Source: Desulfobacterales bacterium (GTDB lineage: Bacteria; Desulfobacterota; Desulfobacteria; Desulfobacterales; C00003060). Taken from it: DNA of 40,867 bases. The notes under the pieces were generated by a model. That model was given only the letters and a program-made list of their open reading frames with translations, did no database searches and had not been told where the DNA came from. Position numbers and translations under genes: made by a program. The stretch lies in assembly GCA_023129535.1 (NCBI GenBank), contig JAGMBW010000063.1:1-40867 (forward strand). Reading direction: 5' to 3'. This document shows positions 18,598-39,078 of the stretch, in pieces. Numbering within the stretch: position 1 is the first letter of the stretch; the number at the start of each line of letters is the position of its first letter.

Positions 18598-18881
18598 GAC
18601 TTATTTTTTGTGTTCTCGTATACGTACCGCGCCAGAGTATCAATTGAATAAAATATTTCCCGGCCTTTCTCCATATCCTTAACTTCCAGACCGAAGTTCC
18701 GCTGCAGCAGCACGACAATCTCTACCGCATCCAAAGAGTCGAGGCCAAGTCCGTCTCCAAACAAGATTTCATCGTCTTTGATCTCATCCGGAGTCACATC
18801 CTCTAATGACAGGTTTTCTACCAACAGTCCTTTTAACTTTTCTCGTATATCCGCCAATCTCTTTTCTTTTTGATCTTCCAT
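18594..18881 (-). CDS. Acyl carrier protein (second)
   Basis: A 95-residue carrier protein with the modification site LGLDSLDAVEIVVLLQ; phosphopantetheine would attach to S49. A lysine-rich N-terminal extension of about 12 residues precedes helix 1. The ribosome site is GAGGAGAGA directly before the ATG. It overlaps the KS gene (ATGA), which marks it as the likely carrier of the KS/CLF pair. A 121-bp gap with a GC-rich hairpin separates it from the preceding acyltransferase. Confidence 0.93.
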   Translation of the reverse strand: MEDQKEKRLADIREKLKGLLVENLSLEDVTPDEIKDDEILFGDGLGLDSLDAVEIVVLLQRNFGLEVKDMEKGREIFYSIDTLARYVYENTKNKS

Positions 18882-18932
18882 TCATTCTCTCCTCGCTAAA
18901 CAACATGCTGTCATTCTTTCACCCCCACCTAA

Positions 18933-18953
18933 CCTCCCCCAGCAAGGGGGAGG
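18933..18953. repeat. Perfect GC-rich palindrome
   Basis: CCTCCCCC (18933-18940) and GGGGGAGG (18946-18953) form an 8-bp perfect stem with loop AGCAA. No T-run follows on either strand, so it is not an obvious terminator. Such CCTCCCCC hairpins are frequent dispersed elements in environmental bacterial genomes. It may act as an mRNA stabiliser inside the operon. Confidence 0.6.
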
Positions 18954-19002
18954 AACTTGTGGGTAAGGATTAGCCAGCCAGGGGGGGATATGGGTACTCA
19001 CT

Positions 19003-21112: not shown

Positions 21113-22472
21113 ACCGTCTTTGTCTTTGCCGTTTTTCGCCCCCGGGAATGAGCATATCCCACAGGGAGCCAGAGTACCCGAGTTTATGAAGGAACTGTAA
21201 ACTGCTGTCCAGGGCATCAGGAGGAAAAACGCAATGCCTGATACCGGAAAACGCATCCGTCAGCGTCTTTTCCAGCCACTGCCTATCGATACCTGGAGCA
21301 ATATAATAGACCGAATCCAGCAATGCCTGGTCATGGGAAATGAAACCTTGCCTGCACGCTATCCTGGCAAGAACGGTGTCAGGAAGGATCCGAATGCCCA
21401 TAAAAATAAATGAAACTGTTTTCTTCAGGTTTTTGATATTCTCTATCCCTTCCAGGACCGTCTCCCGTGTTTCACCCGGGCAGCCGAACATGTAATAATG
21501 TGCCGTGGCAACACCGTGGCTGACAAACAGGTCATTGCAGTCAAGTATATCTTTAAACCGGAATGATTTTCCGAGTCCGCGCAGCGTCGTATCAGTAGGT
21601 CCATCAGACCCGATTTCCGCCGCCTTCAGTCCGGTCTGTTTCATCAGCGCCACGCTCTCATCATCCAGGCCTTGCGGCTTGAAAAAAGCGGTCCAGGAAA
21701 CATACACACCCCTTTTTTTCATCTCCCTGACCACAGCAAGATAATGCTGCTGGTCGTCATTGAAAACCGAATCGGTAAAGAAAATATACCGCACTTGGTG
21801 CCTATCCACCAGCATCTCGATATCGTCTACCACGGCCTGCGGATCTCTGGGACGAATGGTAGAACCCTCCAGTAGAGGATAGCAACAATAAACACAGTTG
21901 TGAATACACCCCCGTTTTGTCTGGATAGAAGCCATGTTGCCGCTTTTGAGGTAAAACTCCATAAGCCGATCATCGTAACAAGCCGAGGGGATTTTTTTCC
22001 CGCTCAGCTTGAACGATGCTCGAATACATCGTTCCTCGGGATATACGCCCCGACCCGCATTGGCAACAAAGTCAACCATCAGCGACTCGCCTTCTCCCAC
22101 AATCCCGTAATCAGCGCCCACCTCACGCAAGATCACCTCCGGCATAATGGAAAACCCTGAACCACCTAATACAACGGGGGCATCCGTTTGCCCTCGTATT
22201 TTTTGCACAACACTACTGTCAACATTAATATACCGCTGTTCATTTAAAAGGTTTACATTATCTATATTCCGTATTGATATGCCAATAATGTCTGGATCAA
22301 TCTGTCTAATCTCGTCGGCCAGGGTATCCAGTGACCCGTTATTTTGGAGCAAATCGAATTGATACACCTTGTGCCTGGCACTTTGTAATGCTGCAGCAAC
22401 CATGCTCAATCCAAGCGGATAAACGGGATACGGAGTATTGGAAACATTGGAAGAAATGAGCAAAACCTTCAT
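21099..22472 (-). CDS. Cobalamin-type radical SAM enzyme (second of a pair)
   Basis: A 457-residue protein with an N-terminal Rossmann-like B12-binding-type domain (about 1-140, LISSNVSNTPYPVYPLGLSM, GGSGFSIMPE, VGEGE) and a radical SAM core with C189, C193 and C196 in RGCIHNCVYCCYP. Such class B enzymes carry out methylations, ring contractions or carbon-carbon bond formation. The ATG at 22472 overlaps the previous radical SAM stop by 4 nt and has AAGGAAG upstream. Anammox ladderane loci also pair radical SAM enzymes with fatty acid genes, so a role in modifying the acyl chain is reasonable, but not shown. The long C-terminal half has no motif I recognise. Confidence 0.87.
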   Translation of the reverse strand: MKVLLISSNVSNTPYPVYPLGLSMVAAALQSARHKVYQFDLLQNNGSLDTLADEIRQIDPDIIGISIRNIDNVNLLNEQRYINVDSSVVQKIRGQTDAPVVLGGSGFSIMPEVILREVGADYGIVGEGESLMVDFVANAGRGVYPEERCIRASFKLSGKKIPSACYDDRLMEFYLKSGNMASIQTKRGCIHNCVYCCYPLLEGSTIRPRDPQAVVDDIEMLVDRHQVRYIFFTDSVFNDDQQHYLAVVREMKKRGVYVSWTAFFKPQGLDDESVALMKQTGLKAAEIGSDGPTDTTLRGLGKSFRFKDILDCNDLFVSHGVATAHYYMFGCPGETRETVLEGIENIKNLKKTVSFIFMGIRILPDTVLARIACRQGFISHDQALLDSVYYIAPGIDRQWLEKTLTDAFSGIRHCVFPPDALDSSLQFLHKLGYSGSLWDMLIPGGEKRQRQRRYATK

Positions 22473-23743
22473 GCGGTTTGCTTCCTTTTGCCGGTGTAAC
22501 CCCACGGACGCTTGGCACTCAGCTTTACTCTCTTATACGTTCCGTCTCTCCTTTCCTTTTCAATAACCTTGAGGTACAGTTTTGCCATTTGTATTTCCTT
22601 GGAGCAGTCCGCATAAAATGTTTCCCAGGCATATTCATACATCTCCTGTAGCGAGGCCACGCTCATTTTCTTTGGTTGAAAGACAACTTCTCCTGTCGTA
22701 TAACGGCTCCAGTCATTGTGGAGGATCCTGTTCTCCTTCTCCAGTTGCTGCCTGATCGGCGTGTGAAGGAAGGGTGTGAGGATGGTAAACTCGGCAAGAT
22801 CGAGATCTATTTCCAGGAGAAAATCGACGAGTCGTCTAATATAATCTTCATCATGATTATCCAACCCTAACAGAACCGTTCCTTCCACTCCGATGCCGCG
22901 TTCCTTAACCCGCAATATCCTCTTACGAATATGATCCGATGTGTCCACGATGGCCTGGTACATATACCAGCACCCGGCTTTGGCAGCCAGGTCAAGTATT
23001 TCGTCGTTATCCTTTATGGGATGAGATATCCATTTCTTTTTCAACGGCGCAATTGTCTTGAACAGCTCTTTTTCCCATTCATCATCTTGAGCGAGCGAAT
23101 TATCAACGAAAAACACACGGTTATTGTCAATACTCTCCAGCTCCTTGACTACGGCCTCCATAGGACGCGGCCTGAACTTGCGCCCCCCCAAATACGGTGT
23201 ACAGCAGGGGAAACAGTTGAACCGGCATCCCCGGGAGGCATGCACCAGGTCAACCATTTGCACCCCCCGGAAATTATACAATTCGCGTTTAAGAATGCTA
23301 CGCCGGGCACTCCCTATTAACTTCATGTCGGGGAAATCACGATGGTAGTTATAGACTCTTTTTAACTGCCCTTTCTTAAAATCATTGATAACGGTATCAA
23401 ACCGTCCTTCCGCCTCCCCTACGAAAACAGCATCGGCATGCTGCATCGTTTCTTCGGCATGGAGCATTGCAGCGATACCACCGAACACCACCTTTTTTCC
23501 GTGAGACCGATACCAATCGGCAATCTCCCAGGCACGAGGAATCTGGCACGTCAGCAAAACCGATATGGCGATCAAGTCCCCATTTTCATCGAAATCGAGT
23601 TCTTCAACATTTTCATCGCAGAAGGAAATCTCAACATCATCTGGTATTGTAGCAGCGAAACACACCACTCCGTGGGGCGGAAGATTAAACTCCGGCTGAT
23701 TCTTCAATTTTGGCCACTTTGGATATATCAGCTTTACTTTCAA
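22469..23743 (-). CDS. Cobalamin-type radical SAM enzyme (first of a pair)
   Basis: A 424-residue homolog of the next gene. It has an N-terminal B12-binding-type domain (about 1-125, PPHGVVCFAATIPDD, FGGIAAMLH, VGEAEG) and a radical SAM cluster site C173, C177, C180 in RGCRFNCFPCC. The start is a TTG at 23743 with GGGGA about 6 nt upstream. It overlaps the second enzyme by 4 nt, so the two are probably made together and act in succession or as a complex. No canonical DxHxxG cobalamin motif is visible, as in many class B members, so cobalamin binding is inferred from the domain only. Confidence 0.87.
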   Translation of the reverse strand: MKVKLIYPKWPKLKNQPEFNLPPHGVVCFAATIPDDVEISFCDENVEELDFDENGDLIAISVLLTCQIPRAWEIADWYRSHGKKVVFGGIAAMLHAEETMQHADAVFVGEAEGRFDTVINDFKKGQLKRVYNYHRDFPDMKLIGSARRSILKRELYNFRGVQMVDLVHASRGCRFNCFPCCTPYLGGRKFRPRPMEAVVKELESIDNNRVFFVDNSLAQDDEWEKELFKTIAPLKKKWISHPIKDNDEILDLAAKAGCWYMYQAIVDTSDHIRKRILRVKERGIGVEGTVLLGLDNHDEDYIRRLVDFLLEIDLDLAEFTILTPFLHTPIRQQLEKENRILHNDWSRYTTGEVVFQPKKMSVASLQEMYEYAWETFYADCSKEIQMAKLYLKVIEKERRDGTYKRVKLSAKRPWGYTGKRKQTA

Positions 23744-25813: not shown

Positions 25814-26944
25814 TCACTTTCCCAACACCAGGGCACTGTTCACTCCGCCGAACCCCGAGTTCGTAGAAATAGTTACCCCACCATCAACTGCGCAAGCTTC
25901 CGAAGAGACCCACCCCTTGGCCTCCTCATCAACATCCAGCAAGTTCACCGTAGGCGGAACAACTTTTTCTCTTAATGACTCAAAGGCCACAATTGTTTCT
26001 ACCAGACCGGCTGCTCCCATAGTATGTCCTATTGCGCCCTTGATCGAATACGTCGGTATGCACCGCGTTTCAAAAACCGTCTTAAACGCGTTCATTTCCA
26101 TGGAATCGTTGTATACGGTTCCCGTGCCATGGGCTGCCAAGGATTCCACAGCATCCTCAGAGATATCTGCTGATTGCAGTGCTTTTTGAATAGCCAGCGC
26201 CAATCCGCTCCCGTCCCGTGAAGGGCCGGTCATATGATTGGCATCACTCGTTAATCCCCAGCCGACCACTTCTCCGATCACCGGTCTCTTTTCCCTTGAT
26301 GCCCTCGATTCACTCATGAGCAACATGAATCCTGCTGCTTCACCAAGAGTCAAACCGCTTCTGTTTTTGTCAAAAGGTCGCGCCATATCATTATCCAGTG
26401 CCATCAAAGAAGAAAAACCGGAAAACACAAACTCGCTCACACTGTCACAGGCAACAACGAGCACACAATCACGCTCACCGGAGCAAATCATAGTCGCTGC
26501 CTGAGCAATGGCCGTGCTTGATGACGCACAGGCTGCAGAAACTACGATGCCGGGACCACTTACCCCGCTCAGACCTATCACTTTGTTAAGCAAATAATTG
26601 AGACGGCTGCCTGCAGGATCCGGCCCCCCGTCCAGGATATGCCGCTCCAGAATCTCGATCTCCCCTGTTGTAGTTGCCAGAATCAAGAGCGCGTCATCAG
26701 GAATAACCGCAGATCTTTTTGTCAGCAGCGGCGTCAACATCTGTATCACCAGCGATTCATCCTGCCCGCCAGCAAGGCCAGGGACAACTGCGGCCTTTCC
26801 GGTCAGAAAATATTTTGTTTCAAAGCGGTCCAGCCGCCCGATTGCCGTCTTCCCGGACAATAGTCCATTCCAGCAGGGATCAATCCCCCAGCCGTAAGGA
26901 GTTACCATGTCACATGCAACAACAACTGATTTTACCGCAGACAC
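25814..26944 (-). CDS. Beta-ketoacyl-ACP synthase (second)
   Basis: A 376-residue FabF-like ketosynthase with the complete triad: C139 (VVSAACASSSTA), H272 (AHGTGTVYND) and H307 (KGAIGHTMGAAG). The start is a GTG at 26944 with AGGAG about 7 nt upstream, overlapping the thioesterase by 13 nt. The N-terminal part is slightly short compared with FabF. It is grouped with the dehydratase, thioesterase and DUF3261 lipoprotein genes as in aryl-polyene clusters. It probably supplies one round or one class of elongation that differs from the KS/CLF pair. Confidence 0.88.
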   Translation of the reverse strand: MSAVKSVVVACDMVTPYGWGIDPCWNGLLSGKTAIGRLDRFETKYFLTGKAAVVPGLAGGQDESLVIQMLTPLLTKRSAVIPDDALLILATTTGEIEILERHILDGGPDPAGSRLNYLLNKVIGLSGVSGPGIVVSAACASSSTAIAQAATMICSGERDCVLVVACDSVSEFVFSGFSSLMALDNDMARPFDKNRSGLTLGEAAGFMLLMSESRASREKRPVIGEVVGWGLTSDANHMTGPSRDGSGLALAIQKALQSADISEDAVESLAAHGTGTVYNDSMEMNAFKTVFETRCIPTYSIKGAIGHTMGAAGLVETIVAFESLREKVVPPTVNLLDVDEEAKGWVSSEACAVDGGVTISTNSGFGGVNSALVLGK

Positions 26945-27420
26945 TTAAACTCTCCTGCTTTCCACCGGCCGCGGCACCGTTCCAAAAGCTCTGGAGAAGT
27001 AATGCAAACCTCTCCGGTAATACTATCAACAAACATCTGCACGGTATACCCGGTGGCAGCAATACTACCATCCTCTTTTATCAGCGCGTACTCGGTATTC
27101 AGCCTCGCGCCATCACTCCATATCAACGACGCCAAAATGGTAAACTCTTCATCCAGGGTAAGCTGCCGGTGATAATCAATATGAAACTGCACGATGGGTG
27201 CACGAAGGTTCGCCTCATAAAAATCTTTGTACGAAAGACCGCAGTTTCTGCCGAGCGCAGTGGCTCCTTCTTCAAAATAGGCAGCGTACCTGCCGTACCA
27301 GGCGATCCCCATAATATCGGCCTCGCTGAAATGTACCCGCCTTTTTACTCGCACAAGCAGAGATTCGGGCATCCCTTCAATGCGCTTAAAGTACCCGTTC
27401 TTCCTACGCCGCACCGTCAT
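26932..27420 (-). CDS. Hotdog-fold acyl thioesterase (4HBT type)
   Basis: A single-domain hotdog protein of 162 residues. The segment VHFSEADIMGIAWYGRYAAYFEEG corresponds to the 4-hydroxybenzoyl-CoA thioesterase signature (x-D-x-D-x-x-G-x-x-x-x-x-x-Y), with D35 as the likely catalytic acid. It overlaps the dehydratase upstream by 4 nt and the ketosynthase downstream by 13 nt. Aryl-polyene clusters carry a thioesterase of this type in a similar place, probably for proofreading or release of acyl-ACPs. The first 20 residues are basic and may not belong to the fold. Confidence 0.82.
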   Translation of the reverse strand: MTVRRRKNGYFKRIEGMPESLLVRVKRRVHFSEADIMGIAWYGRYAAYFEEGATALGRNCGLSYKDFYEANLRAPIVQFHIDYHRQLTLDEEFTILASLIWSDGARLNTEYALIKEDGSIAATGYTVQMFVDSITGEVCITSPELLERCRGRWKAGEFKCLR

Positions 27421-27812
27421 TGCGCCCTTTGTTTTTCTTCTTCAAGACTCACTCTTAACTGCAATTTGGCGATTTTCTTACCTTTACTGGTTATAAGTGC
27501 TTTCACTATGGCTTCTTTGCCGCTCTCCATTTGCTCCAGGCACTCAAAAAACAGTTCTTCACCGCAGGAGACGGGCGAAAAGAACTTGGCCAGGATGATT
27601 TCTTTTAGTCTGACTCTTTTTTTAAGCCATGTCTCCAGGATCACCACCACAGCCTGTATCTTACAAACTCCAGGGAGTACAGGCCTGCCGGGAAAATGTC
27701 CTTGAAAACCGATGAAATCCTCGGGAAATACAAACCGGGCCGTCACCTTCCCTTCGTCAGTTTCGGTCAAATGAGACATGCACTGTTTGATTTCCTGTAC
27801 AAGCACGTTCAT
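27417..27812 (-). CDS. FabZ-like 3-hydroxyacyl-ACP dehydratase
   Basis: A 131-residue hotdog protein with the FabA/FabZ signature GFQGHFPGRPVLPGVCKIQA. H39 is the catalytic His. The acidic residue normally found a few residues later (Glu in FabZ, in PGV..IE) is Gln53 here, so dehydratase activity may be altered. The ATGA overlap links it to the DUF3261 lipoprotein, and the thioesterase overlaps it in turn. A dehydratase without an enoyl reductase would leave double bonds in the growing chain. A second hotdog is fused to a radical SAM enzyme at 31671-33161 and could share the work. Confidence 0.8.
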   Translation of the reverse strand: MNVLVQEIKQCMSHLTETDEGKVTARFVFPEDFIGFQGHFPGRPVLPGVCKIQAVVVILETWLKKRVRLKEIILAKFFSPVSCGEELFFECLEQMESGKEAIVKALITSKGKKIAKLQLRVSLEEEKQRAQ

Positions 27813-28531
27813 GACCGGATCTCCTTTAATCGCACAACCAATTGATACTGGTGTTCATGATGGGTGAGTATGATACCAGCCGGATACAGCTTTTCCTTTT
27901 CCCGGCGGTATTCGTAATAAGAAACAGTCCATACCCGGCAGCTTCCCTTGTAATACCGCTTTTCAATGAGCGCGTTATCAATCCCCGCAAAGACATATTC
28001 CATTACACCGGCTGCTGTCGCCTGTCTGAAAATAATTTTGTATTTCTCCTTGTATACCTTGGCTTCAGGACCAGGAACACGGTCAAAATATATTCTCCTG
28101 ATATCGTCTGCCACTGCGCGAGCAAAATTACCCCGGCGGGTAAATTCTTCGATAGCGAACCTGCACTCAACGTCATTGGCGTCCCCTGATAATTCAAACA
28201 GCTTAACCCCGAGGGGATTAAGGCCTGCGACTGTAAAAACCTTCTGACGAGTATCCACAGCACTATACCCGATAACAGAAATGGCATACCTGCCATACTG
28301 GAAAACGATTGTATTGACAAGCTGGAATTGAGGAGGGAGTGACTGGGCAAACTCTCTCCTCACGGCCGCAGGCTCAATTGCATCAACGGGAATATAGGAA
28401 ACACGTTGAAAAGGAATACTACTGCAGCCGGTGCTGGACAACACCAGTAGACCTACAATTATCAACTGTGGCACGATAGCAAAGGCTCTTTTGGATTGTT
28501 GATTTTGGAATGTGCGTGAACGGTTATGCAT
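27809..28531 (-). CDS. DUF3261-like outer-membrane lipoprotein
   Basis: A lipoprotein of 240 residues. A long N-terminal region with a hydrophobic helix ends in the lipobox SSTGC, so C36 would be lipidated. The mature part, including VNTIVFQYGRYAISVIGYSAVD and GLNPLGVKLFELSGD, matches the DUF3261 pattern seen next to MMPL exporters in aryl-polyene clusters. It probably helps receive or insert the exported lipid at the outer membrane, together with the LolA-like carrier. It overlaps the transporter by 8 nt and the dehydratase by 4 nt. The ribosome site is weak, consistent with coupled translation. Confidence 0.75.
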   Translation of the reverse strand: MHNRSRTFQNQQSKRAFAIVPQLIIVGLLVLSSTGCSSIPFQRVSYIPVDAIEPAAVRREFAQSLPPQFQLVNTIVFQYGRYAISVIGYSAVDTRQKVFTVAGLNPLGVKLFELSGDANDVECRFAIEEFTRRGNFARAVADDIRRIYFDRVPGPEAKVYKEKYKIIFRQATAAGVMEYVFAGIDNALIEKRYYKGSCRVWTVSYYEYRREKEKLYPAGIILTHHEHQYQLVVRLKEIRS

Positions 28532-30968
28532 TCTTTAGCCACAACCTGTACAAAGCCGGAACAACTATCAGTGAAGCAACGTAACCCACCGATACGCCTG
28601 TCACCAGAGTTATCCCGATAGAAAACAGTACCGGATGTTTAGCAAATAAGAGTACGCCGGCTCCAATAAGGGTTGTGAGCGCTGACAGCGTTACTGCCAT
28701 ACGCGTCCCTGTCCGCAAGTCATACCGGCACGTATAGACCATGAATATACCGTAGTCGATGCACAGACCAACAACAACCATGGCAGCAATCACACTGGGC
28801 GCATTCACAGACAACGCCAGTACGGACATCATCCCCAGTACCACCATAATGCCGGTAACAACCGGAACCAGGGCCAGCGCGGCTAATCGTATATCCTTCA
28901 ACAACAAACACGTCATTGCCGGAATAAACAACGCGGCAATGCCAGACAGCAAGACAATTTCCGAGGAAACGGATTGCGAAAGGGCGCGGGAGAGCGTTTT
29001 CCGGGATACCAAAAATGTCCCCGGATAACCACTGCTTACTGCTGTCAAGGCCGTAACATATTGATCTTCATCTGGGAAAAACGATAACACCTGGTACCCG
29101 TTCTGTTTCTTCAGCACAAACCGTTCCTTCAACGTCTCGAAAAAGCTGAGTCCTTCTGGCTCACCTTGAACTACCGTACCGGCATACAAATGTTCAAAAA
29201 ACGGAGAAAAGGCATCTTCGGAAAAATGATACGCAGGGCCATGCTCACGAAGAAGCTTTTTCAGTTTGGCTTCCTTTCCTTGCTTCCAGAACGCTTTCCA
29301 GCGCATGGCATTTGAATTCCGTGTTTGTTTTGATGGCCATATCACCGCAAAACTTGAAAAATTGTCTTCTCCCACCTCAGCCGTTGCTTCCCGGTAAATT
29401 CGTTCATTCTGCAAAAGCGCTTCTTCCAGAGTTTTTCCGGGCACGACAAAAACCGCCGGTTTATCCTCTCCTCCCCACACAAGATGGAACTTTTGTTCCG
29501 CTTGAATAATTTCCGGCTCACTCCCGTCAAGCTGGCTGATATCACTGTTAAAGGTTACCCGACAAGACAAGATCACAGCGGTCACCATAACCATTCCCCA
29601 GCAGGCAACTCGTATTGTATCCGGCATTTGAGTTGAAAGCTGAAAGCTAAAACCTAAAAGATTCCTGCTTTCAGCTTTCAGCCTTGACCCTTGAGCCTTG
29701 AGCCTTGAGCCTTGAATCATACCGGGAAATCGGTCATAAGCTCCACAACCCAAAAAATGAGGTAAAATGAACAACGCCCCGGCAAGACACAAGACAATGC
29801 TGAGAATCGAAAAGAAAGCAAGCTGATGGTATCCTTGCACACTGGAAAAGAAAAATGCGGCAAAAACGCTTATGGTGGTCAGCGCTCCGATAACCACCGG
29901 TTTTGCTACGTCCTTAACGGCATCGGCCCGGCCGCCCCTGGCACGCACTGCCATATACACGTGAATTGCATAGTCCACCGCTATCCCAGCAATAACACCA
30001 CCCATGCCGATAATAAAATACGAGAGTTCCTTAAGCATCAGGGAAGAGAGGTTTATGGAGACAAGAACAGATAGCAGCGGCAACAGGAAGACCATCACTG
30101 CCTTGATATCGCGGAAAACAAAGACAAATAAGCACAAAAAAGCAACCGAAGCGATGGTCAACGTTAACCGGATATCCCTTTTCATAACGTCTTCATTGCT
30201 GATCGTGTGAAGATGTCCGGCAATGATATCCCCGGAAATAAAGGGAGGCAGTCCCTCCAATTTTTTACGTAAATACGATATCAGTCTCCGGGAGCCAAAC
30301 CCGTCTGTGAGAACCACCGGGGTCTCAAGAATGAGCATTGCATGTTTTCCATCCCGGCTAACAAAATGCCCCTCTTCAATCCTAACATCGTACCCCAGCG
30401 AAGAAGACAGTTTTTGTAGAGACCCAAGAACACCCGATTTTACCCCCAACGGATCAGACCGAATAAAGGGCATCATAAACGTACTGGCGGGGATTAGTAA
30501 CTGTCGGTAATTTCGGCGCAGGCTTTCTTTGACTCCTGCCGGGGTTATCTGTTGCTTGATGAGGGAGAGGGCTTGTTCGTCAAGCAACTGCGGAGTATAC
30601 TTCAGAAAAGAGAGCATTCCCTCCACCATGTTGTTTCCGGCAACACCGCTTACCACGTCCGTCACCATGGGTGGCTTCAGAGATTCCGCTAATCGATCAA
30701 CAGCAAGGATGAGGTCTCGTGTCGTATGTTCGGAAGATGCCAGTTCGAAAGAAAGTACAACCTTATCCGAAAAATGAGATTCCCTCAGAAAACGTATGCT
30801 GCGGTGAACCTCATCATTTCCGGGGAGCATTAATTCGATGTTGCTATCGAAGGAAACAAACCTGAGGCCGATCGCTGCAGTAGTAACTATAATGCCTACC
30901 AATCCCGCAACCAGCCATTTCCGTTGGTGAATGCTGTCACTGAAACGAGAAAAATAATCATTGAACAC
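28524..30968 (-). CDS. MMPL/RND-family lipid exporter
   Basis: An inner-membrane transporter of 814 residues from GTG 30968 (GGGAAG upstream; TTG 30998 also possible). It has the RND duplicated layout: a first helix (about 19-39), a periplasmic domain, helices from about 270 to 407, a second helix near 458-470, a second periplasmic domain and helices from about 670 to 805. GxxxDYAIH (VAGIAVDYAIHVY) and GLCIDYGIFMVY are the conserved charged membrane motifs of both halves. MMPL proteins move lipids outward. It sits between the LolA-like carrier and DUF3261 lipoprotein, as in aryl-polyene clusters. Oddly, residues about 417-449, in the loop before the second half, are encoded by repeat DNA. Confidence 0.88.
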   Translation of the reverse strand: MFNDYFSRFSDSIHQRKWLVAGLVGIIVTTAAIGLRFVSFDSNIELMLPGNDEVHRSIRFLRESHFSDKVVLSFELASSEHTTRDLILAVDRLAESLKPPMVTDVVSGVAGNNMVEGMLSFLKYTPQLLDEQALSLIKQQITPAGVKESLRRNYRQLLIPASTFMMPFIRSDPLGVKSGVLGSLQKLSSSLGYDVRIEEGHFVSRDGKHAMLILETPVVLTDGFGSRRLISYLRKKLEGLPPFISGDIIAGHLHTISNEDVMKRDIRLTLTIASVAFLCLFVFVFRDIKAVMVFLLPLLSVLVSINLSSLMLKELSYFIIGMGGVIAGIAVDYAIHVYMAVRARGGRADAVKDVAKPVVIGALTTISVFAAFFFSSVQGYHQLAFFSILSIVLCLAGALFILPHFLGCGAYDRFPGMIQGSRLKAQGSRLKAESRNLLGFSFQLSTQMPDTIRVACWGMVMVTAVILSCRVTFNSDISQLDGSEPEIIQAEQKFHLVWGGEDKPAVFVVPGKTLEEALLQNERIYREATAEVGEDNFSSFAVIWPSKQTRNSNAMRWKAFWKQGKEAKLKKLLREHGPAYHFSEDAFSPFFEHLYAGTVVQGEPEGLSFFETLKERFVLKKQNGYQVLSFFPDEDQYVTALTAVSSGYPGTFLVSRKTLSRALSQSVSSEIVLLSGIAALFIPAMTCLLLKDIRLAALALVPVVTGIMVVLGMMSVLALSVNAPSVIAAMVVVGLCIDYGIFMVYTCRYDLRTGTRMAVTLSALTTLIGAGVLLFAKHPVLFSIGITLVTGVSVGYVASLIVVPALYRLWLKNA
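29634..29717. repeat. Period-7 inverted repeat inside the exporter gene
   Basis: TGAAAGCTGAAAG (29634-29646) and its perfect complement CTTTCAGCTTTCA (29668-29680) form a 13-bp stem with a 21-nt loop. Four CCTTGAG-type units follow (29682-29714). The reading frame of the exporter remains open and yields GSRLKAQGSRLKAESR, a repeat-encoded peptide. The same repeat style fills the ilv spacers. Confidence 0.85.
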
Positions 30969-31638
30969 GCGGTTTAACTTCCCAGGCCTCGGCACCAATC
31001 GGAATATTCAACAGGGTATCGACGAATGTCAGGAGCGTGCTGTCTCCACTCTTTTCTTCTATACATATCTGGTAGATATAACGTTCATCTATCCTGAATA
31101 CAACAGTCACGCTGTCAATAACGTTGGAGGCAACCGTGGCCTTACGGGGAATAAATCTAAGGGAAACCGGTCTTTGCTTGAGCAGCATTACGTCGTATTC
31201 CGCCAGCAGTGACGTGTATGTCCCCGAAAACCACTCTCTCATCTGTCCAACAACCGCCTGGAACCCAGGATTTTTTGACAACGGTATCTGTTGAACCCGT
31301 CGGGTATCTTCATCCCACTGGCGAACCGTATCGTCCTTCATGACCAGAGAGTACCGCATTGGTTTCTTCACATGCCAGGCAAAATGCGCTGGTTTCTGCA
31401 GGAAGATGGTTCCTTCCAAGACAAGCGTTTGGTCAAAAACAGCCAGTTTTTTTTCCTGGACAAAACCTGTTTGCAAGGTCTGCATTGCGGACATCTTTTC
31501 TTCCAGCCTGCCGAGGACGCTATCTATGTTCGAGGCAACATCCAGGGACTCTTCAGTCGCAGACGGCTCAGCATGAGAGTGCACCCCAAACAGGCATAAA
31601 CACAACATGAGCCATAGGGCATTCTTTTTCAATCTCAT
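30958..31638 (-). CDS. LolA-like outer-membrane lipoprotein carrier protein
   Basis: A periplasmic carrier of 226 residues. The start at ATG 31638 gives a clean signal peptide (MRLKKNALWLMLCLCLFGVHSHA, cleavage near 23/24) and has a GAGGG ribosome site; a longer frame to 31674 reads only repeat DNA. The mature part MQTLQTGFVQEKKLAVFDQTL..GTIFLQKPAHFAWHV follows the LolA pattern (F.Q......SGTF...P..F.W). LolA-type proteins shuttle acylated cargo across the periplasm. It is followed by the MMPL exporter with an 11-nt overlap and preceded by the radical SAM fusion. Confidence 0.85.
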   Translation of the reverse strand: MRLKKNALWLMLCLCLFGVHSHAEPSATEESLDVASNIDSVLGRLEEKMSAMQTLQTGFVQEKKLAVFDQTLVLEGTIFLQKPAHFAWHVKKPMRYSLVMKDDTVRQWDEDTRRVQQIPLSKNPGFQAVVGQMREWFSGTYTSLLAEYDVMLLKQRPVSLRFIPRKATVASNVIDSVTVVFRIDERYIYQICIEEKSGDSTLLTFVDTLLNIPIGAEAWEVKPRVQ

Positions 31639-31640
31639 CC

Positions 31641-31678
31641 AATCCCTCAATTCCTGAATCCCTGAATCCCTCAATTCT
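31641..31678. repeat. 8-bp repeat at the start of the LolA-like gene
   Basis: TCCCTGAA/TCCCTCAA-type units run across the junction between the radical SAM fusion and the LolA-like gene. On the transcribed strand the unit supplies GAGGG, the probable ribosome site of the downstream gene. It also overlaps the last codons of the upstream gene. Confidence 0.6.
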
Positions 31679-33161
31679 CCCCTGTATTATGCCAGACTGT
31701 AATTTCTCCTCGGGCAAGCACATGGTTACCTCGTGAAACGGTCCCTTTCACGATACCGAAATCACCGTATCGTGCATATTTGTACACCGATATGTGCAAT
31801 GTATCACCAACCCGAGCCTTCCCCGATATCTCAAGCTTTTTCGCACCCAACAGAAACCCATCCGGCGCTGATTCAGACGCACCCATTTGCTTAAACCCGT
31901 TCAGGGCCGCTATGGATTGTGCCATCATTTCAAGATATATGGCATCATCAATGATGCCGTTTTCTCCGACAGACGGCATCCCTTCTAATATCTTTACTGA
32001 AATCTGTGCCGAGCGTTCCGCCACGGTGAGCAGGGTATCAACAACCCGCATCGGTGGTTTTTGTGGGATAATGTCATCAACGGCTACCGGCAGACGAACA
32101 ATTTCTTCCTGCCGATCCACGTTTTTCCAGCACAAAGGATCGGAGGCAAGATAATTGCCGGTCAACTGGTACGCTGCCCCGCGGCACCCGTAACAATGGT
32201 CTGCCTTCTCACAGGTGCGGCATGGCCCCATTATGGTATGTCGGTAGTCCCTGAGGTCCTGAATAACCTCGCTGTCCTTTATGATATCACGAAGCTTTTG
32301 CTTCCGGATATTTCCCACTGGTATGGTCACCCCGACACAGGGCATCACATCTCCCTGGGAGGTCACCAGGCAGGAAAATTGGTGCCGCAAACATTTATTC
32401 CCCACAAGAGGAGGCTGGGGTTCCCAGACCTGGCCATACCGCTTACGGTCAATCTCTGCAATCTCTGAGAAGATTTCGTACAGTTTCCGAGCATCAACTC
32501 TTAACCATTCGTTCTGTTTTGCATTCTCCTGGGGAGTAATGATCTCAAAATAGGGAACGATGTCCTGGTCCCTCAGCCACTGCCACATATCCACGATTTC
32601 ATGAATATTTTGCTGACAAATAATGGTGCTGACCGCCAGAAATGCTTCTTTGGAAGGATACCCCGCCTGTTTCACATTATGAAATGCTGCCTGGATAAGC
32701 TTATAAGACCCCTTTGTTCCGGAAAGGGTATCCTGCAACTTCTCATCAAAGGTATTCATTTTCAAGACAACTCTCACATTGTGGTCAAATAACTGTTTTG
32801 CAAAATCAGCCGTAACATAGGAACCGTTGGTAAACATCTCCACTTCAAGATCCTGGCCTCTGATAAATGCGATCATCTCCAGAACATATGGATATATCGT
32901 GGGCTCTCCGCCGAGAATAATAATCTTCTTGGCTCCCAGGTTCTTGGCCTGCAAGATAACGTCACAAATTTCTTCTCTGGACAGTTCATTTTCAAGAGCA
33001 GGGTTTTGCGGCACATAACAGTACGGACAGTGAAAATTACAGCGCCGGCTGAACTCGATTTCCATGGAAAGAAGCCTGCCGTTTCTTACTGCTTCTTCGA
33101 TCTCATCCTGGGCAAATTCAAAATTGGGAATTGGACTGGGGCAGCTCGCCATCTCATTCAT
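31671..33161 (-). CDS. Radical SAM/SPASM enzyme fused to a dehydratase-like hotdog
   Basis: A 496-residue fusion. The N-terminal radical SAM domain has C41, C45 and C48 in CNFHCPYC and the GGEPT motif near 84-88. A SPASM-type auxiliary cluster region follows with C257, C264, C275, C314, C317, C323, C326 and C344. From about 355 to 490 comes a hotdog domain (PQKPPMRVVDTLLTV, YLEMMAQSIAALNG, DGFLLGAKKLEI) like the ApeP-type 3-hydroxyacyl-ACP dehydratases. The same enzyme could therefore dehydrate and radically modify an ACP-bound chain. The ATG at 33161 overlaps the ligase stop by 4 nt; ATG 33152 has a better-spaced AGGAG. I know of no standard name for this fusion. Confidence 0.85.
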   Translation of the reverse strand: MNEMASCPSPIPNFEFAQDEIEEAVRNGRLLSMEIEFSRRCNFHCPYCYVPQNPALENELSREEICDVILQAKNLGAKKIIILGGEPTIYPYVLEMIAFIRGQDLEVEMFTNGSYVTADFAKQLFDHNVRVVLKMNTFDEKLQDTLSGTKGSYKLIQAAFHNVKQAGYPSKEAFLAVSTIICQQNIHEIVDMWQWLRDQDIVPYFEIITPQENAKQNEWLRVDARKLYEIFSEIAEIDRKRYGQVWEPQPPLVGNKCLRHQFSCLVTSQGDVMPCVGVTIPVGNIRKQKLRDIIKDSEVIQDLRDYRHTIMGPCRTCEKADHCYGCRGAAYQLTGNYLASDPLCWKNVDRQEEIVRLPVAVDDIIPQKPPMRVVDTLLTVAERSAQISVKILEGMPSVGENGIIDDAIYLEMMAQSIAALNGFKQMGASESAPDGFLLGAKKLEISGKARVGDTLHISVYKYARYGDFGIVKGTVSRGNHVLARGEITVWHNTGEN

Positions 33162-34453
33162 CTCCTGTCTATAAAATGAACAGGTTTCCTCGACTTTGGA
33201 GTGTATACCTGTTGTTTGACGGTTTCCTCATCCGTAATCACAACGGCCGATTTTACCCTCAATCGTGCCTGAAGTCTATCCTGTATGATATTAGCAGTAC
33301 AGGACGTGTCATTCACGGCCGCATAAATGGTCATGCTGTCGGACAGATCACTTTCGCTGGTTACCACTATATAGTATTCGCTTACAGCATTCAATTCTTC
33401 CAGGACCGAATATACGGCCTGCGGATACACAGTCGTACCTCGAATCTTCATCATCTGTTTGCTTCTTCCCAGGATCGGCCCCAGTCGGGGAGAAAACCGA
33501 CCGCAGGAACACGGCGTATCGATCAGGAAACTCATGTCGCCCGTCCTAAAGCGTACCAGAGGCATTCCTTCCACGGCCATTGGTGTCACAACAACCTCTC
33601 CTATGATTCCGGGGGGAAGGACTCTCCCGTTTGCATCAACAATCTCTACAACGGCTAAATCCGGATGGAGATGCCCTCCTTGTTGGGCAGTACATTCACA
33701 GAATGTCGTCACGATTTCCGAAGAGGCATAGGTGGAAAATGCTTTTGCCTGCCATATATTCTGCAAATCATTGCCTATTTTCAATAATCCGAGATCGTTG
33801 TCTCGTAGCGGTTCACCAATGCACACCAGCCTGGATACGGCTGTCTTGGCCGGATTCATTCCTTTTCCCTGCAGGTAAAGGCCCAATTTTTTCAAGAACG
33901 TCGGAACTCCCACAATAACGGTAGGGTCCATCCACTCGATGATGTCCCGATGACTTTCAAGGCTGTTTAGACCGTTCCGGATCGCAGCGGCACCGAGACT
34001 GCGTATCCCCAAAAAATACGCCAGGCCTGCAACGAAACACCGGTCCATCGTACACGTCAGTAGCACCATATCCGCTGGCGTTATCCCACATCCCTCAAAG
34101 GACTTCTCTTCGTTGTAGGCAAGGCGCTGGAGATCGTCATTAGTATACATCAACCTGCTCGGACGGCCGGTCGTCCCTGATGACAAAACAATGTCAACAA
34201 TCCTCGCAGAAGAAACCGCGCAGAAATCATCATTATGCTGTTCAATATCGGATTTCTCAGTGAACGGGAGCACGGACAACTGCTCGAGGGTGATGCTCTC
34301 ACAGTCCATGTCGGAATTGTTCAGGGTTCTCCGGTAGTAAGGCGAATGTTCACGACAGTAAACGAGGTGTTCGCGCAACCTGTTCTCCTGAACCTCCCTG
34401 ATGTCATCAGGAGCGGAAAAGGATATATATCGGTAACGGTCTAGGTCCGTCAT
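33158..34453 (-). CDS. PaaK/F390-synthetase-like AMP-forming ligase
   Basis: An adenylate-forming enzyme of the phenylacetate-CoA ligase/coenzyme F390 synthetase branch, 431 residues. It has the P-loop SSGTTGRPSR (91-100), the signature YASSE, RTGD, and the C-terminal GRSKQMMKIRGTTVYP hinge. It would activate an acid as acyl-AMP, perhaps to load the ACP two genes upstream. A PaaK-like ligase is one of the genes reported near the anammox ladderane cluster. It overlaps PlsC and the radical SAM fusion by 4 nt each. The substrate is unknown. Confidence 0.85.
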   Translation of the reverse strand: MTDLDRYRYISFSAPDDIREVQENRLREHLVYCREHSPYYRRTLNNSDMDCESITLEQLSVLPFTEKSDIEQHNDDFCAVSSARIVDIVLSSGTTGRPSRLMYTNDDLQRLAYNEEKSFEGCGITPADMVLLTCTMDRCFVAGLAYFLGIRSLGAAAIRNGLNSLESHRDIIEWMDPTVIVGVPTFLKKLGLYLQGKGMNPAKTAVSRLVCIGEPLRDNDLGLLKIGNDLQNIWQAKAFSTYASSEIVTTFCECTAQQGGHLHPDLAVVEIVDANGRVLPPGIIGEVVVTPMAVEGMPLVRFRTGDMSFLIDTPCSCGRFSPRLGPILGRSKQMMKIRGTTVYPQAVYSVLEELNAVSEYYIVVTSESDLSDSMTIYAAVNDTSCTANIIQDRLQARLRVKSAVVITDEETVKQQVYTPKSRKPVHFIDRR

Positions 34454-35202
34454 GCCTCCTTATCCATCACAGCCAGTTCTCGAGCAATAATATCGCGAAC
34501 CCTGTTCTTCAGTTTAAAGGGTTTCATATCCTTATACTCTTCCCACTGGAGTGCCGGCAGTTTGTGCACCTTAATCGTCCCCGCCCTTAACAAGAGAGAG
34601 CCCCGATTAATTATATTCTCATTACCGGCAATGCACAATGGTGCAATCGGGCACTTGGCCTTCAAAGCAACGCGGAAAATCGAACCGTGAAACTGCCCCA
34701 TCGTTTTATCCCCTGACCGGGTACCTTCAGGAAGCACAACAATAGAAACCCCCTGTCCGAGCAACTCAATGGCCTTCCGGGAGAATTCCTCAAAGGGCAT
34801 CTCTCTGACACTCAGGTAGCCGGCCCACCTGGCGAAGATGCCCAACACAGGTATTCGAAAAGGCCATATATTCACCACCTGGACAATCTCGTAGGGCAGG
34901 CAAGCCATAAGAAACGCATCCGAGGTCGCCCGGTGATTACAGACAAAAATGTACGGGTCGGTTTCGTCATCCTTTGCGTAGTCTTTATAGCGAATCCGCA
35001 CCAAAGGAAATGGAAGCAGCCGGATAACCACCGTCCCGTACCAACTGATGGCACGGCGAAACCGTTTCATGATACTCCGATGAGACATAAATAACGACAA
35101 GAATGCGACCAACAGAGTAAGCAGGGGAATACCGAGTGCGGAGAACAGGAAAAACGACAGATAAAACGTTGTATTCAAATATATCAGTTTTAAGGTTTCC
35201 AC
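34450..35202 (-). CDS. PlsC-like 1-acyl-glycerol-phosphate acyltransferase
   Basis: A 250-residue membrane acyltransferase with an N-terminal hydrophobic helix (about 12-38), the catalytic NHRATSD (H90, D95) and LPEGTRS (157-163). These are motifs I and III of lysophosphatidic acid acyltransferases. The start is a GTG at 35202 with AAGGACC upstream. Its place next to an ACP and a ketosynthase suggests it moves the finished acyl chain onto a glycerol-phosphate or lysolipid acceptor. It lies 51 bp after the ACP and overlaps the ligase by 4 nt. Confidence 0.88.
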   Translation of the reverse strand: METLKLIYLNTTFYLSFFLFSALGIPLLTLLVAFLSLFMSHRSIMKRFRRAISWYGTVVIRLLPFPLVRIRYKDYAKDDETDPYIFVCNHRATSDAFLMACLPYEIVQVVNIWPFRIPVLGIFARWAGYLSVREMPFEEFSRKAIELLGQGVSIVVLPEGTRSGDKTMGQFHGSIFRVALKAKCPIAPLCIAGNENIINRGSLLLRAGTIKVHKLPALQWEEYKDMKPFKLKNRVRDIIARELAVMDKEA

Positions 35203-35253: not shown

Positions 35254-35544
35254 TCATTCTTTCTGATCAGATACTATGGCGGACGCGCCTCCGGTTTTTA
35301 GATTAAGAATAAACTGGTAAATATCCCCCAGTGTCCGAATACTCCTGACCCGTTCATCGTCTCGGATCTTCACGCCAAACTTTTCCTGCAGGGCAACCAC
35401 CAGATCAACAACATCCAGGCTGTCGAGCCCCAGGTCCTCGAAGATGTTCATCTGCGGCTGGAGCTTCTCTTTTTCTATCTCAAAGGACTCTTCAAACACC
35501 TGATTTGTCAAAGTAATAATCTCTTGCTCGGTGGTGGTGGTCAT
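35254..35544 (-). CDS. Acyl carrier protein (third)
   Basis: A 96-residue carrier protein with FEDLGLDSLDVVDLVVALQEKFGV; phosphopantetheine would attach to S42. The start at ATG 35544 has AGGAAGG upstream. An open frame extends to 35643 inside the ketosynthase gene but lacks ACP similarity there. It follows the ketosynthase by 19 bp and precedes PlsC, so it probably serves that ketosynthase. A glycine-alanine-rich tail follows helix 4. Confidence 0.94.
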   Translation of the reverse strand: MTTTTEQEIITLTNQVFEESFEIEKEKLQPQMNIFEDLGLDSLDVVDLVVALQEKFGVKIRDDERVRSIRTLGDIYQFILNLKTGGASAIVSDQKE

Positions 35545-35563
35545 ACCGTATCCTTCCTGTCTC

Positions 35564-36799
35564 CTACTGATGATTAACCTTCTTACAGACCAGGGCCGCA
35601 TTGATACCGCCAAAGGCAAAACAATTCTTGACCATGACTCCAATATCCCACGCCAACGGATGCATCACATGACGTATCCCCTCGCAATCCGGGCTCACCG
35701 TCTCTAAATTCAGCGTCGGATACACAACTCCTTTCTCCATCATCGCCAGTGAAACTATCAATTCCAGTGATCCTGATGCTCCCAGTGTATGCCCTATATA
35801 TCCTTTCAGGCTGCTTACCGGTACCTCATCACCGAAAAGATCCTTGATTGCTTCGGCCTCTTCTTTGTCCCCCTGCACAGTTGCCGTTGCATGGGCATTG
35901 ACATAGTCCACATCACCAGGCGAGATATGGGCAGTGGCCATCGCTTCCCTGAGACAATAAATCATGGCATCCCGATTGGACTGGCTGACGTGAACCCCGC
36001 TTCCGCAGGTATGGTACCCCACGATTTCAGCGTATATTTTTGCCTTTCGCCGCAAGGCATGTTCATATTCCTCCAGAATAAGGATCCCGCTCCCTTCACC
36101 ACATACCAGACCATCCCGTTCCCTGTCAAAGGGGCGGGGGGTCCTTTGGGGGGCATTATTGTAGCTTACCGATGTTGCAAAAAGGACATCAAAAGCCCCG
36201 GTCACGGTAGGATGAAGCTCCTCTGCGCCACCACACAACATTACATCCTGTTTGCCCAACCTGATCAAATCATAGCCTGCGCCAAGCGCCTGTGATGCAG
36301 ACGCACAGGCTGCGGAAGTCGCCATCACATAACCGGTCAGCCCCAGGTATTGCGCCACATTCATTGCCGCTGTATGGGAAACGCACTGGAAAAACCTCAT
36401 CGCGGTTAACTGCGACAAGTCTTTTTCCGGCAGCATGGTTTCAAAGGCATCATTGAGGCTTTCGGCGCCCCCCATTGTTGAACCGATAATACATCCGACC
36501 CGACCTGAAGAAAGATTTTTCTGTTCTAAACCGGAATCGGAAAGGGCCTGCTGTGTCGCCTGAACGGCAAAAAAACTCATTCTTCCCATTGAGCGTCTGC
36601 TTTGACGCGGTATCGACTTTTCATTTTTCAGCTCCGCCGGTGCGCCCACAAGGCTGCGCAACCCGGTATACTGCTCCCATCCTTCCATATATTGCACAGC
36701 GCTTTTCCCCTGCTCAACACCTTTGATAAGCGATGGCACATCGCTGCCCAGAGGAGAAACAGCACCGACACCTGTGATAACGACCCTTTTCAACTGCAT
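35564..36799 (-). CDS. Beta-ketoacyl-ACP synthase (third, ladderane-cluster type)
   Basis: A FabF-like ketosynthase of 411 residues with C165 (TSAACASASQA), H303 (VNAHATATVQGD) and H337 (KGYIGHTLGASG). The threonine-rich HATAT replaces the usual HGTGT, a mild variant. The MRFFQCVSHTAAMNVAQYLG segment is distinctive. It overlaps the phytoene-desaturase-like gene by 10 nt and is followed by an ACP. This pair, desaturase then KS-ACP-PlsC-ligase-radical SAM, parallels the gene order described for anammox ladderane loci, as far as I can recall. It probably carries out the main elongation. Confidence 0.9.
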   Translation of the reverse strand: MQLKRVVITGVGAVSPLGSDVPSLIKGVEQGKSAVQYMEGWEQYTGLRSLVGAPAELKNEKSIPRQSRRSMGRMSFFAVQATQQALSDSGLEQKNLSSGRVGCIIGSTMGGAESLNDAFETMLPEKDLSQLTAMRFFQCVSHTAAMNVAQYLGLTGYVMATSAACASASQALGAGYDLIRLGKQDVMLCGGAEELHPTVTGAFDVLFATSVSYNNAPQRTPRPFDRERDGLVCGEGSGILILEEYEHALRRKAKIYAEIVGYHTCGSGVHVSQSNRDAMIYCLREAMATAHISPGDVDYVNAHATATVQGDKEEAEAIKDLFGDEVPVSSLKGYIGHTLGASGSLELIVSLAMMEKGVVYPTLNLETVSPDCEGIRHVMHPLAWDIGVMVKNCFAFGGINAALVCKKVNHQ

Positions 36800-38292
36800 A
36801 ATCTCTGTTCAATAAAACGACAATACTTTTCCTTACCCACAATACTTCGCCCCACAATAAAGGAGGACATCATGGCCCCCACCACTCCCGGCAACATGGA
36901 ACTCTGCCCGGCGGCATAGACGTTTCGCAGGGGGAGCTTGCCGAAAAGATTAAACTGCCCAATTTTCTGTTTCACGCCGTACGCTGAGCCGTCAGGAGAA
37001 TGCAAATAATCCCTGAAGGTCAGGACCGATGCTGCCTCAACCACCCTAAAAGAATCGCGATACTCCGGGTACGTCCTAACAATGCGCCTCCTGATACTGT
37101 CAACACGCTTTTGTTTATACTCCGCGTACCCGGGAGGGCGATTTCCTGTTCTTGAGTCCTTCCATGCTGCCACGTGTTCGGGAAAGGAGATCTCAGACGC
37201 ATTCATCACACGATAGGATCTTCCGCCTACCACCTCACGGTTTTTCATGATGACCAACGCCTGTGCACTGGTGGTGCCGGGATCGAGCATCGAGTTCACG
37301 TCCGTCGTTGGGAACAGGGAAAGGATTGACGGATCAAAATCATCTGCCGGGTCATCGGGCTCCACAACGCCGAATACCGAAAAGAATCCCGCCGACGGTT
37401 CAAAGGCATTCACCCTGTCAACAAAGGCATTGCTCAAATGTTCTTGCGGCAAAGTTTTCAATATCTCCTTAGGGTGTATCGTAAAAATGCAGTGGGTGCA
37501 GGAAATTTCTTCACCGGTATTCAACACAAACCGGCCTACATGCTTGTTCCGTATATCAACACACCCGGTAATATATCTGTCGCACATAATCGCAATATCA
37601 AGTTCAGCAAAGCACTCTCGGAACGCCTTGATAAATGCATCTCCCCCGTCTTTCACACGGGCTACCGATTGATACAAACCGAAGCATACCCTGCTGTGAT
37701 TGGCAAAGGAAACCTCCGCAGGCTTAACCCCGTAACACATGCTGTATGCGGCCAGGAATGCCCTTAACGTGCAATTGTCGGTCAAGCCCTTCAACACATC
37801 ATCAAGGCTGACAAAATCCTCATCAATGAGATTCGGAGAGAGGGAAATCTTCCGCAAATCCATGGCAACGGTCCGGGAACAAACGTCTTTCACCATCTCA
37901 AAATACCAGTCGATAGCCTGCTCCTCGCCAGGGAAGTATTCCTTAAGCTTTGCGATTGTCTCCTGATAACCGGTCGGCATATCATAGGTTGCCTGTTCCG
38001 CTTCAAAGATAATTCGATTATTCTTTTCCTTCGACAGATAGATCGGCTTGACATAATCATGAATGCCGAGAACCGTCAGCATGTCGTGGAGAATCCCGTT
38101 CTTGCCAAACCCGCCGGTAAAATGGAAACCAGTATCAAAGGGAATCCCTTCCCTGTAAAACCGGGCTAACGACCCACCGATACGTGGACTCTTTTCGAGC
38201 AGCAACACGGAACGCCCGTTCATGCCAAGCAAAAGCGCAAGGGTCATGCCGCTGATGCCGCTTCCCACAACTAGATCGTCATACTTTTTCAT
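36790..38292 (-). CDS. Phytoene-desaturase-like FAD oxidoreductase (first)
   Basis: A flavoprotein of 500 residues of the CrtI/retinol-saturase group. The FAD-binding motif GSGISG lies at 10-15 and the second glycine region is KSPRIGGSLARFYREG. The FAD-closing segment near the end is AAGQSSMLPGVVGAMMSSFIVGRSI. Members desaturate, saturate or isomerise polyenes. With ketosynthase and radical SAM genes it fits chain modification after or during polyene synthesis. Its stop overlaps the ketosynthase start by 10 nt. The ribosome site is weak. Confidence 0.88.
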   Translation of the reverse strand: MKKYDDLVVGSGISGMTLALLLGMNGRSVLLLEKSPRIGGSLARFYREGIPFDTGFHFTGGFGKNGILHDMLTVLGIHDYVKPIYLSKEKNNRIIFEAEQATYDMPTGYQETIAKLKEYFPGEEQAIDWYFEMVKDVCSRTVAMDLRKISLSPNLIDEDFVSLDDVLKGLTDNCTLRAFLAAYSMCYGVKPAEVSFANHSRVCFGLYQSVARVKDGGDAFIKAFRECFAELDIAIMCDRYITGCVDIRNKHVGRFVLNTGEEISCTHCIFTIHPKEILKTLPQEHLSNAFVDRVNAFEPSAGFFSVFGVVEPDDPADDFDPSILSLFPTTDVNSMLDPGTTSAQALVIMKNREVVGGRSYRVMNASEISFPEHVAAWKDSRTGNRPPGYAEYKQKRVDSIRRRIVRTYPEYRDSFRVVEAASVLTFRDYLHSPDGSAYGVKQKIGQFNLFGKLPLRNVYAAGQSSMLPGVVGAMMSSFIVGRSIVGKEKYCRFIEQRLCS

Positions 38293-38334: not shown

Positions 38335-39078
38335 TTAGATGGCCAGCCCACCGTTAATACCGATAACCTGACCGTGAATATACATATGTTCTTCACTGCA
38401 TAGGAAATTTACGACCGATGCAACATCATCAGGACTTCCAAACCGCTGTAATGGAATAAGTGGAAGGATTTGATCTTTTGGAAGCCCCTTGGTCATGTCT
38501 GTTTCAATCACCCCGGGAGCGACAACATTGACGAGAATATTTTTCTTGCCGACTTCCCGGGCCAATGCCTTTACAGCACCGATCAAGCCTGCTTTTGAGG
38601 CAGAATAGTTTACTTGACCTGCCTGGCCGATCTGACCGGAAGTCGAAGACACGACAACAATGCGTCCCTTTTTTGCGCGCAGCATCGGGAACAGTAACGT
38701 GTGCATTACATTATAAAATCCGTCAAGGTTGGTCGAAAGAACCGCATCCCATTCTTCCCTTGTCATCCATACCAAAAGGTTATCGCGGGTAATCCCGGCA
38801 TTATATACCACCACATCCGGAGCACGGGCCTCCGTCTTTTCCCCTAACGCTGTCTCGGTTTCCTCATAATCAGAGATATCAAAACAAAGGGTTTCACACA
38901 ACCTGCCTGTCTGTTCTATCTCTGCCTTGACCATCTCAGCAGCGGCATGATTGCCCCGGTAGGTTAACCATATATTAAATCCGGATTGGGCAAGACGCAG
39001 TGCGATGGCTCGCCCTATGCCACGGCTCCCTCCAATAATTAGTGCGATCTTTTCGCTATTTTCTTTGTTATTCTTCAT
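38335..39078 (-). CDS. FabG-like 3-oxoacyl-ACP reductase
   Basis: A short-chain dehydrogenase of 247 residues. The cofactor motif is GGSRGIG (16-22) and the catalytic set is N117, S145, Y158 and K162 (YSASK). The MTREEWDAVLSTNLDGFYN and PGVIETDMTK segments are typical of FabG. It reduces the ketoacyl-ACP made by the ketosynthases with NADPH, before dehydration. It is the only ketoreductase in the cluster. It is the first gene after the best promoter candidate in the operon; the 42-bp gap to the desaturase has no other feature. Confidence 0.93.
   Translation of the reverse strand: MKNNKENSEKIALIIGGSRGIGRAIALRLAQSGFNIWLTYRGNHAAAEMVKAEIEQTGRLCETLCFDISDYEETETALGEKTEARAPDVVVYNAGITRDNLLVWMTREEWDAVLSTNLDGFYNVMHTLLFPMLRAKKGRIVVVSSTSGQIGQAGQVNYSASKAGLIGAVKALAREVGKKNILVNVVAPGVIETDMTKGLPKDQILPLIPLQRFGSPDDVASVVNFLCSEEHMYIHGQVIGINGGLAI

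Follow-up and report, generated by a model that had tools for sequence, protein, structure and literature searches.

A radical SAM/SPASM enzyme fused to a probable ApeP-type half-dehydratase in a ladderane-type lipid cluster of a Desulfobacterales bacterium

Analysing a 40,867-nucleotide stretch of Desulfobacterales DNA (hereafter the window), we found a genuine and conserved gene fusion, set in a cluster for an anaerobic polyene or a ladderane-type lipid, in which a dispensable radical SAM module stands in front of an ApeP-type half-dehydratase. We consider it probable that the protein contributes the acid to a 3-hydroxyacyl-ACP dehydratase made of two different subunits, and that the SPASM radical SAM enzyme joined to this half is a separate module that belongs with a phenylacetate-CoA-ligase-like (FlxY-like) adenylating enzyme (PCL) encoded next door. 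A literature search found no paper on a radical SAM/SPASM-hotdog fusion.

The frame (31671-33161, as the earlier note had placed it, and on the minus strand) overlaps the PCL gene at its start and a LolA-like gene at its end by a few bases each, an arrangement as in a translationally coupled operon (Table 1). Its three domains had been called correctly from the letters, as Pfam confirmed for the first two and profile and fold for the hotdog. Radical_SAM (PF04055) matched residues 35-195 with 84 bits (cut-off 29.5) and SPASM (PF13186) matched residues 257-318 at E 6.5e-10 with 39.6 bits (cut-off 21.5). Our motif table likewise bore out the CxxxCxxC core and the eight further cysteines of the SPASM region (257, 264, 275, 314, 317, 323, 326 and 344, out of 14 cysteines in the whole protein), and every one of the 14 intact fusions in the alignment preserves C41/C45/C48 and GGEP. 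The core and SPASM fold resemble PqqE, AhbD and NirJ (6c8v, E 4.0e-10; best NCBIfam models AhbD and NirJ2); unlike these enzymes, the fusion lies in a lipid cluster and scores far below every equivalog cut-off (AhbD 125.6 of 500 bits, NirJ2 121.2 of 500, PqqE 113 of 381).

Evidence for the hotdog came from relatives and from structure. Taken alone, the window's domain matched the ApeP-like family PF22817 at E 0.0099 with 15.9 bits, under the gathering cut-off of 27, and relatives matched it in eight of eight cases (best 1e-7). With a profile of eight relatives, the ApeP chain in the solved ApeI:P structure (6qsr_B) was found at E 9.4e-19, a much better match than the FabZ structures, those of anammox bacteria included (a literature search found no paper on the anammox FabZ structures), so that the C-terminal part does match ApeP even though the single sequence falls below the Pfam cut-off. 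The predicted fold of the domain (mean pLDDT 68.8 when modelled by itself) aligned to 6qsr_B with Z 18.2 and 2.7 Å over 130 residues. The full-length AlphaFold model, a single chain like the others, was weak (pLDDT 58), too weak for interdomain claims, and its two parts still matched PqqE and ApeP.

Table 1. Positions of the fusion, its motifs and the neighbouring cluster genes, in window coordinates unless a locus is given
Feature	Position	Strand	Remarks
Radical SAM/SPASM - ApeP-like hotdog fusion	31671..33161	-	496 aa; ATG at 33161, stop at 31671
Radical SAM core, residues 30-240	32442..33074	-	PF04055 E 1.7e-23, motifs
C41/C45/C48 (CxxxCxxC) codons	33018-33041	-	GGEP = residues 84-87
SPASM region, residues 256-345	32127..32396	-	PF13186; eight conserved cysteines
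ApeP-like hotdog, residues 356-492	31686..32096	-	Glu411 codon 31929-31931; no GHFPG His
PCL, phenylacetate-CoA-ligase-like (FlxY-like) adenylating enzyme	33158..34453	-	stop overlaps fusion start
Acyltransferase (LPLAT)	34450..35202	-	PF01553
Acyl carrier protein	35254..35643	-	PF00550
Ketosynthase	35564..36799	-	PF00109/PF02801
CrtI-like flavoenzyme	36790..38292	-
FabG/FlxB-like ketoreductase	38335..39078	-
LolA-like carrier	30958..31674	-	closest model flexirubin LolA2
MMPL/RND lipid exporter	28524..30998	-
DUF3261 (ApeN-like) protein	27809..28531	-
ApeI-like hotdog partner	27417..27812	-	131 aa; 4 kb downstream of fusion
His39 (in GHFPG) codon of partner	27696-27698	-
Gln53 codon of partner	27654-27656	-
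4HBT thioesterase (ApeK-like)	26932..27420	-
Ketosynthase	25814..26944	-
B12-binding radical SAM protein	22469..23743	-
TIGR04072 lipid-biosynthesis B12-binding/radical SAM protein (rSAM_ladder_B12)	21099..22505	-
Rest of cluster: GT2-DUF2062, LpxL-type acyltransferase, ACP, two ketosynthases	16336..21256	-
Single-chain ApeP-ApeI fusion, G022	L096:9532-10434
Single-chain ApeP-ApeI fusion, G197	L094:9814-10755
Single-chain ApeP-ApeI fusion, G089	L095:9408-10337

FabZ-type dehydratases take their catalytic His (in GHFPG) and Glu/Asp from the two subunits of a dimer. Glu411 of the fused hotdog (in LEMMAQ) aligns with the acid of FabZ and ApeP and the GHFPG His has no counterpart, and the chain lacks the joint His and Glu of a complete FabZ-type dehydratase; the description of this part as a complete hotdog held for the fold and failed for the catalytic dyad. 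Both Glu411 and Gln415 were invariant across 37 of 37 aligned hotdogs, fused and standalone. The ApeI-like partner encoded in the same cluster has the opposite endowment, with Gln53 at the position of Glu in FabZ and of Asp in the solved ApeI; among such partners, the GHF His was present in 25/25 and an Asp or Glu at the acid position in 0/25. Complementary catalytic residues thus stand on two chains of one cluster, which is the sequence pattern of an ApeI:P-type enzyme, and because each hotdog has what the other lacks, the dehydratase is most likely an obligate ApeI:P-like heterodimer. That the two halves pair is further argued by genomes G022, G197 and G089, in which ApeP-like and ApeI-like hotdogs form one polypeptide (~301-314 aa). 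Aryl polyene clusters provide a published precedent, their ApeI and ApeP forming heterodimers that have one active site (PMC8041823).

We regard a dehydratase role for the fused hotdog as well supported by these sequence comparisons. The absence of the catalytic His would also suit a non-catalytic domain that docks the radical SAM enzyme or recruits ACP to it while another enzyme dehydrates, a reading that we find very unlikely given that Glu411 and Gln415 are invariant even where there is no functional radical core to dock, that the partner lacks an acid in every case, and that single-chain ApeP-ApeI fusions exist.

Compared with ApeI:ApeP of aryl polyene clusters (6qsr), the window's pair shares the hotdog fold and the placing of the acid on the ApeP-like and the GHFP His on the ApeI-like chain, and its cluster has LolA, MMPL, DUF3261, thioesterase, KS and KR genes in common with theirs; its genes for export and dehydration correspond to those listed for aryl polyenes (PMC8253772). 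The pair differs in that the ApeP-like half sits behind a radical SAM/SPASM enzyme and in that the ApeI-like half no longer carries an acidic residue of its own, which leaves a single possible active site. A comparable joining of one ApeI:P dehydratase half to another pathway enzyme is the ApeH-ApeI fusion of Acinetobacter aryl polyene clusters (PMC8041823), although there it is the ApeI half and a ligase and here the ApeP half and a radical SAM enzyme.

The surrounding cluster is ladderane-type by TIGR04072, a designation that carries no claim that the host makes ladderanes. The corresponding protein scored 625.6 bits against a cut-off of 360, and the model was exceeded in 39 of 44 relatives versus 0 of 14 controls. 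A search for hydrazine synthase (HZS_alpha), as a sign of an anammox host, matched neither this genome nor any control genome. The flexirubin NCBIfam cut-offs were not reached (FlxY, tested as NF053551 with the PCL, 457.7 of 520 bits; LolA2 91 of 125; FlxB 295.9 of 340). In 2009 Rattray described such clusters from Kuenenia and Desulfotalea, containing a PCL and genes for radical SAM, phytoene-desaturase-like and membrane proteins (PMC2649909), and the genes of ladderane-type clusters were later listed one by one in a heterologous-expression study (PMC4790861). The window's cluster shares with them TIGR04072, a second adjacent B12 radical SAM gene, two CrtI-like flavoenzymes, a PCL, several KS and a membrane exporter; in contrast, radical SAM and FabZ are listed separately there and no hotdog fusion is described (PMC2649909, PMC4790861). 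Non-anammox ladderane-type clusters have no known product (PMC9902471).

Three further observations concern genes in and around this cluster. A 224-aa protein (23932-24606), conserved next to the two B12 radical SAM genes in each of the groups that carry the colinear cluster (see below), has no Pfam match and looks like a shortened ketosynthase or a chain-length-factor relative. A 449-aa protein (14132-15481), conserved in G024, has no Pfam or NCBIfam match, and its FDHRLFD motif hints at a condensation/acyltransferase fold. Downstream of the lipid cluster and on the same strand lie branched-chain amino acid genes (1804-11346: KARI, acetolactate synthase subunits, IlvD and a LeuA/citramalate-synthase-like gene), with a PagL-like gene at 10651-11346 on the plus strand.

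Full-length fusions at 54-61% identity occur in Nitrospirota and in unassigned MAGs. Within the window's own order, where the hotdog-profile search covered 389 genomes, family f24 and G069 carry intact fusions of 489-502 aa, family f4 and G094 carry forms of 355-380 aa, and family f36 carries forms of ~350-526 aa, alongside many standalone hotdogs of ~150 aa, which occupy the same gene slot in G040, G074, G085 and G157. Among Nitrospirota, 11 of 296 sampled genomes had a fusion-length frame, and the core was intact in all eight further loci read. The fusion recurs colinear with its cluster in both groups, in the order FabG, CrtI, KS, ACP, LPLAT, [PCL], fusion, LolA, MMPL, DUF3261, ApeI-like, thioesterase, KS, two B12 radical SAM, GT2. 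Such intact fusions (~490-510 aa) in many other genomes of the order and of Nitrospirota rule out the local frame artefact that the earlier note had entertained, which is also contradicted by dN/dS of 0.00-0.25 in all parts of the intact fused frame in close-relative pairs.

The two halves also occur apart. Elsewhere in the phylum, other lipid clusters encode radical SAM orthologues of ~348 aa that lack the hotdog, and a radical SAM tree places the unfused proteins partly among the fused, which implies either secondary loss of the hotdog or fusion on more than one occasion. A separate ApeP-like gene lies ~10-18 kb from the radical SAM gene on one contig in G035, G626, G583, G737, G665, G755, G480 and G720. 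A separate radical SAM gene followed directly by a separate ApeP gene, a possible ancestral arrangement, was not found in the ~10 kb contexts.

On the other side stand 14 genomes in which the fusion has a decayed radical core. None of the 14 has an intact GGEP, CxxxCxxC is gone or partial in 11, and 12 lack most of residues 116-245. The shortened cores of G256, G363 and G367 keep CxxxCxxC and have lost GGEP and ~120 residues of the barrel, whose second half is for the most part gone; it is possible that these three proteins (loci L082, L083 and L085, respectively) bind Fe-S without SAM chemistry. The decayed label amounts to three changes on the SPASM-hotdog tree, and the core likely decayed at least twice; the starred branches by themselves require no more than one event. 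In the f4 group, dN/dS shows relaxation in what is left of the N-terminus (0.29-1.08), against values of 0.07-0.17 in the hotdog and 0.09-0.20 in the SPASM region, where one close pair stands at 0.46; where the core has decayed, hotdog values lie between 0.07 and 0.22. All eight SPASM cysteines are kept after core loss in seven of eight f4/f7 genomes and in four f36 genomes, and several are lost in the long decayed forms of G056 and G373. In the decayed lineages, SPASM and hotdog are under purifying selection.

The state of the core goes with the gene next to it. A PCL gene lies immediately upstream of the fusion in 17 of 20 intact-core loci versus 0 of 14 decayed loci, where an acyltransferase gene takes its place, an association with a Fisher p of 1e-6 counted per locus that is not significant counted per lineage (p 0.14). 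Searched genome-wide at E 1e-60, the f4/f7 genomes have no PCL homologue, and the only one in two f36 genomes, at 43%, lies away from the fusion. Exceptions in the other direction are L009-L011, one closely related group with an intact core and no orthologous PCL (at most a homologue of 35% in another place). In seven clusters, unfused radical SAM genes of 44-49% identity adjoin a PCL (L131-135, L137, L138), and the closest unfused ones (56-64%; G035, G737 and others) sit in clusters with no adjacent PCL. From this co-occurrence a partnership of PCL and radical SAM enzyme is likely. The second CrtI-like gene (39238-40860), considered as an alternative correlate of core integrity, does not track it. 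An 803-aa frame at the radical SAM gene of G628 that could pass for a PCL-radical SAM fusion proved to be GC-rich read-through, the PCL ending at L135:10504 in another frame.

These patterns bear on the claim, drawn in the earlier note from the fusion as such, that both activities handle one ACP-bound hydroxyacyl chain, which would be dehydrated and then perhaps be given a radical at a site that the new double bond determines. A bifunctional enzyme with such obligate coupling would fit the conservation of the fusion in two phyla and the similar purifying selection on both halves of intact members. We nevertheless judge it unlikely, and the claim found no support: the hotdog is the acid half only and catalytically incomplete by itself, each half is found without the other (the ~348 aa unfused relatives on one side, the 14 genomes with a hotdog behind a decayed core on the other), the core decays repeatedly with the hotdog kept, and the presence of the core tracks the adjoining ligase gene and not the dehydratase. 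No finding here points to a radical placed relative to a new double bond.

Under our preferred reading, that of a half-dehydratase needed to extend a polyene and carrying a separate, dispensable radical SAM/ligase module, the fusion's hotdog and the ApeI-like protein would pair as in ApeI:P to form one composite site. Once the ketosynthase and the FabG-like reductase of the cluster have done their part, this site would dehydrate the (3R)-hydroxyacyl-ACP, and a polyene or unsaturated chain would be built up for export by the LolA/MMPL system. The radical SAM core, most likely partnered with the upstream PCL-like enzyme, may act on the PCL-activated acid, as an unusual starter or end group, and its tethering to the dehydratase would deliver it to the ACP-bound chain. 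Going by the fold alone, our default guess for the radical reaction is an oxidative tailoring of the PqqE/AhbD type. Where the module was lost, the SPASM-hotdog remnant would persist since the dehydratase half, and apparently the adjacent SPASM fold, would still be needed.

Why the SPASM region should outlast the core can be read in another way, namely that in the decayed-core proteins the SPASM Fe-S cluster and the residual N-terminus took on a redox or regulatory role over the dehydratase. The retention of the eight cysteines in most f4/f7 genomes and the four f36 genomes, and the low SPASM dN/dS in most pairs, would agree with such a role; the loss of several of these cysteines in G056 and G373 suggests that the cluster is not always needed, and a purely structural role gives the same pattern, so that we hold this takeover to be improbable. 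A broader formulation, which we put forward tentatively, is that in ladderane-type lipid clusters the acid half of a split dehydratase serves as the docking site for an exchangeable module made up of a radical SAM enzyme and an adenylating ligase. After loss of this module, the SPASM domain, surviving without the radical SAM core, may be an integral and possibly Fe-S-dependent part of the dehydratase.

The role of radical SAM enzymes in ladderane-type clusters has been an open question since 2009, and the fusion fixes the attachment point of one of them as the acid half of a split dehydratase. Relatives that repeatedly dropped the radical part and kept the rest show which piece is indispensable to the pathway, and this natural loss series, with intact and decayed cores in otherwise matching clusters, offers a handle on what the radical SAM enzyme contributes. 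That a SPASM domain can outlive the radical SAM core it was joined to, as probably happened two times or more, bears on the function of SPASM domains.
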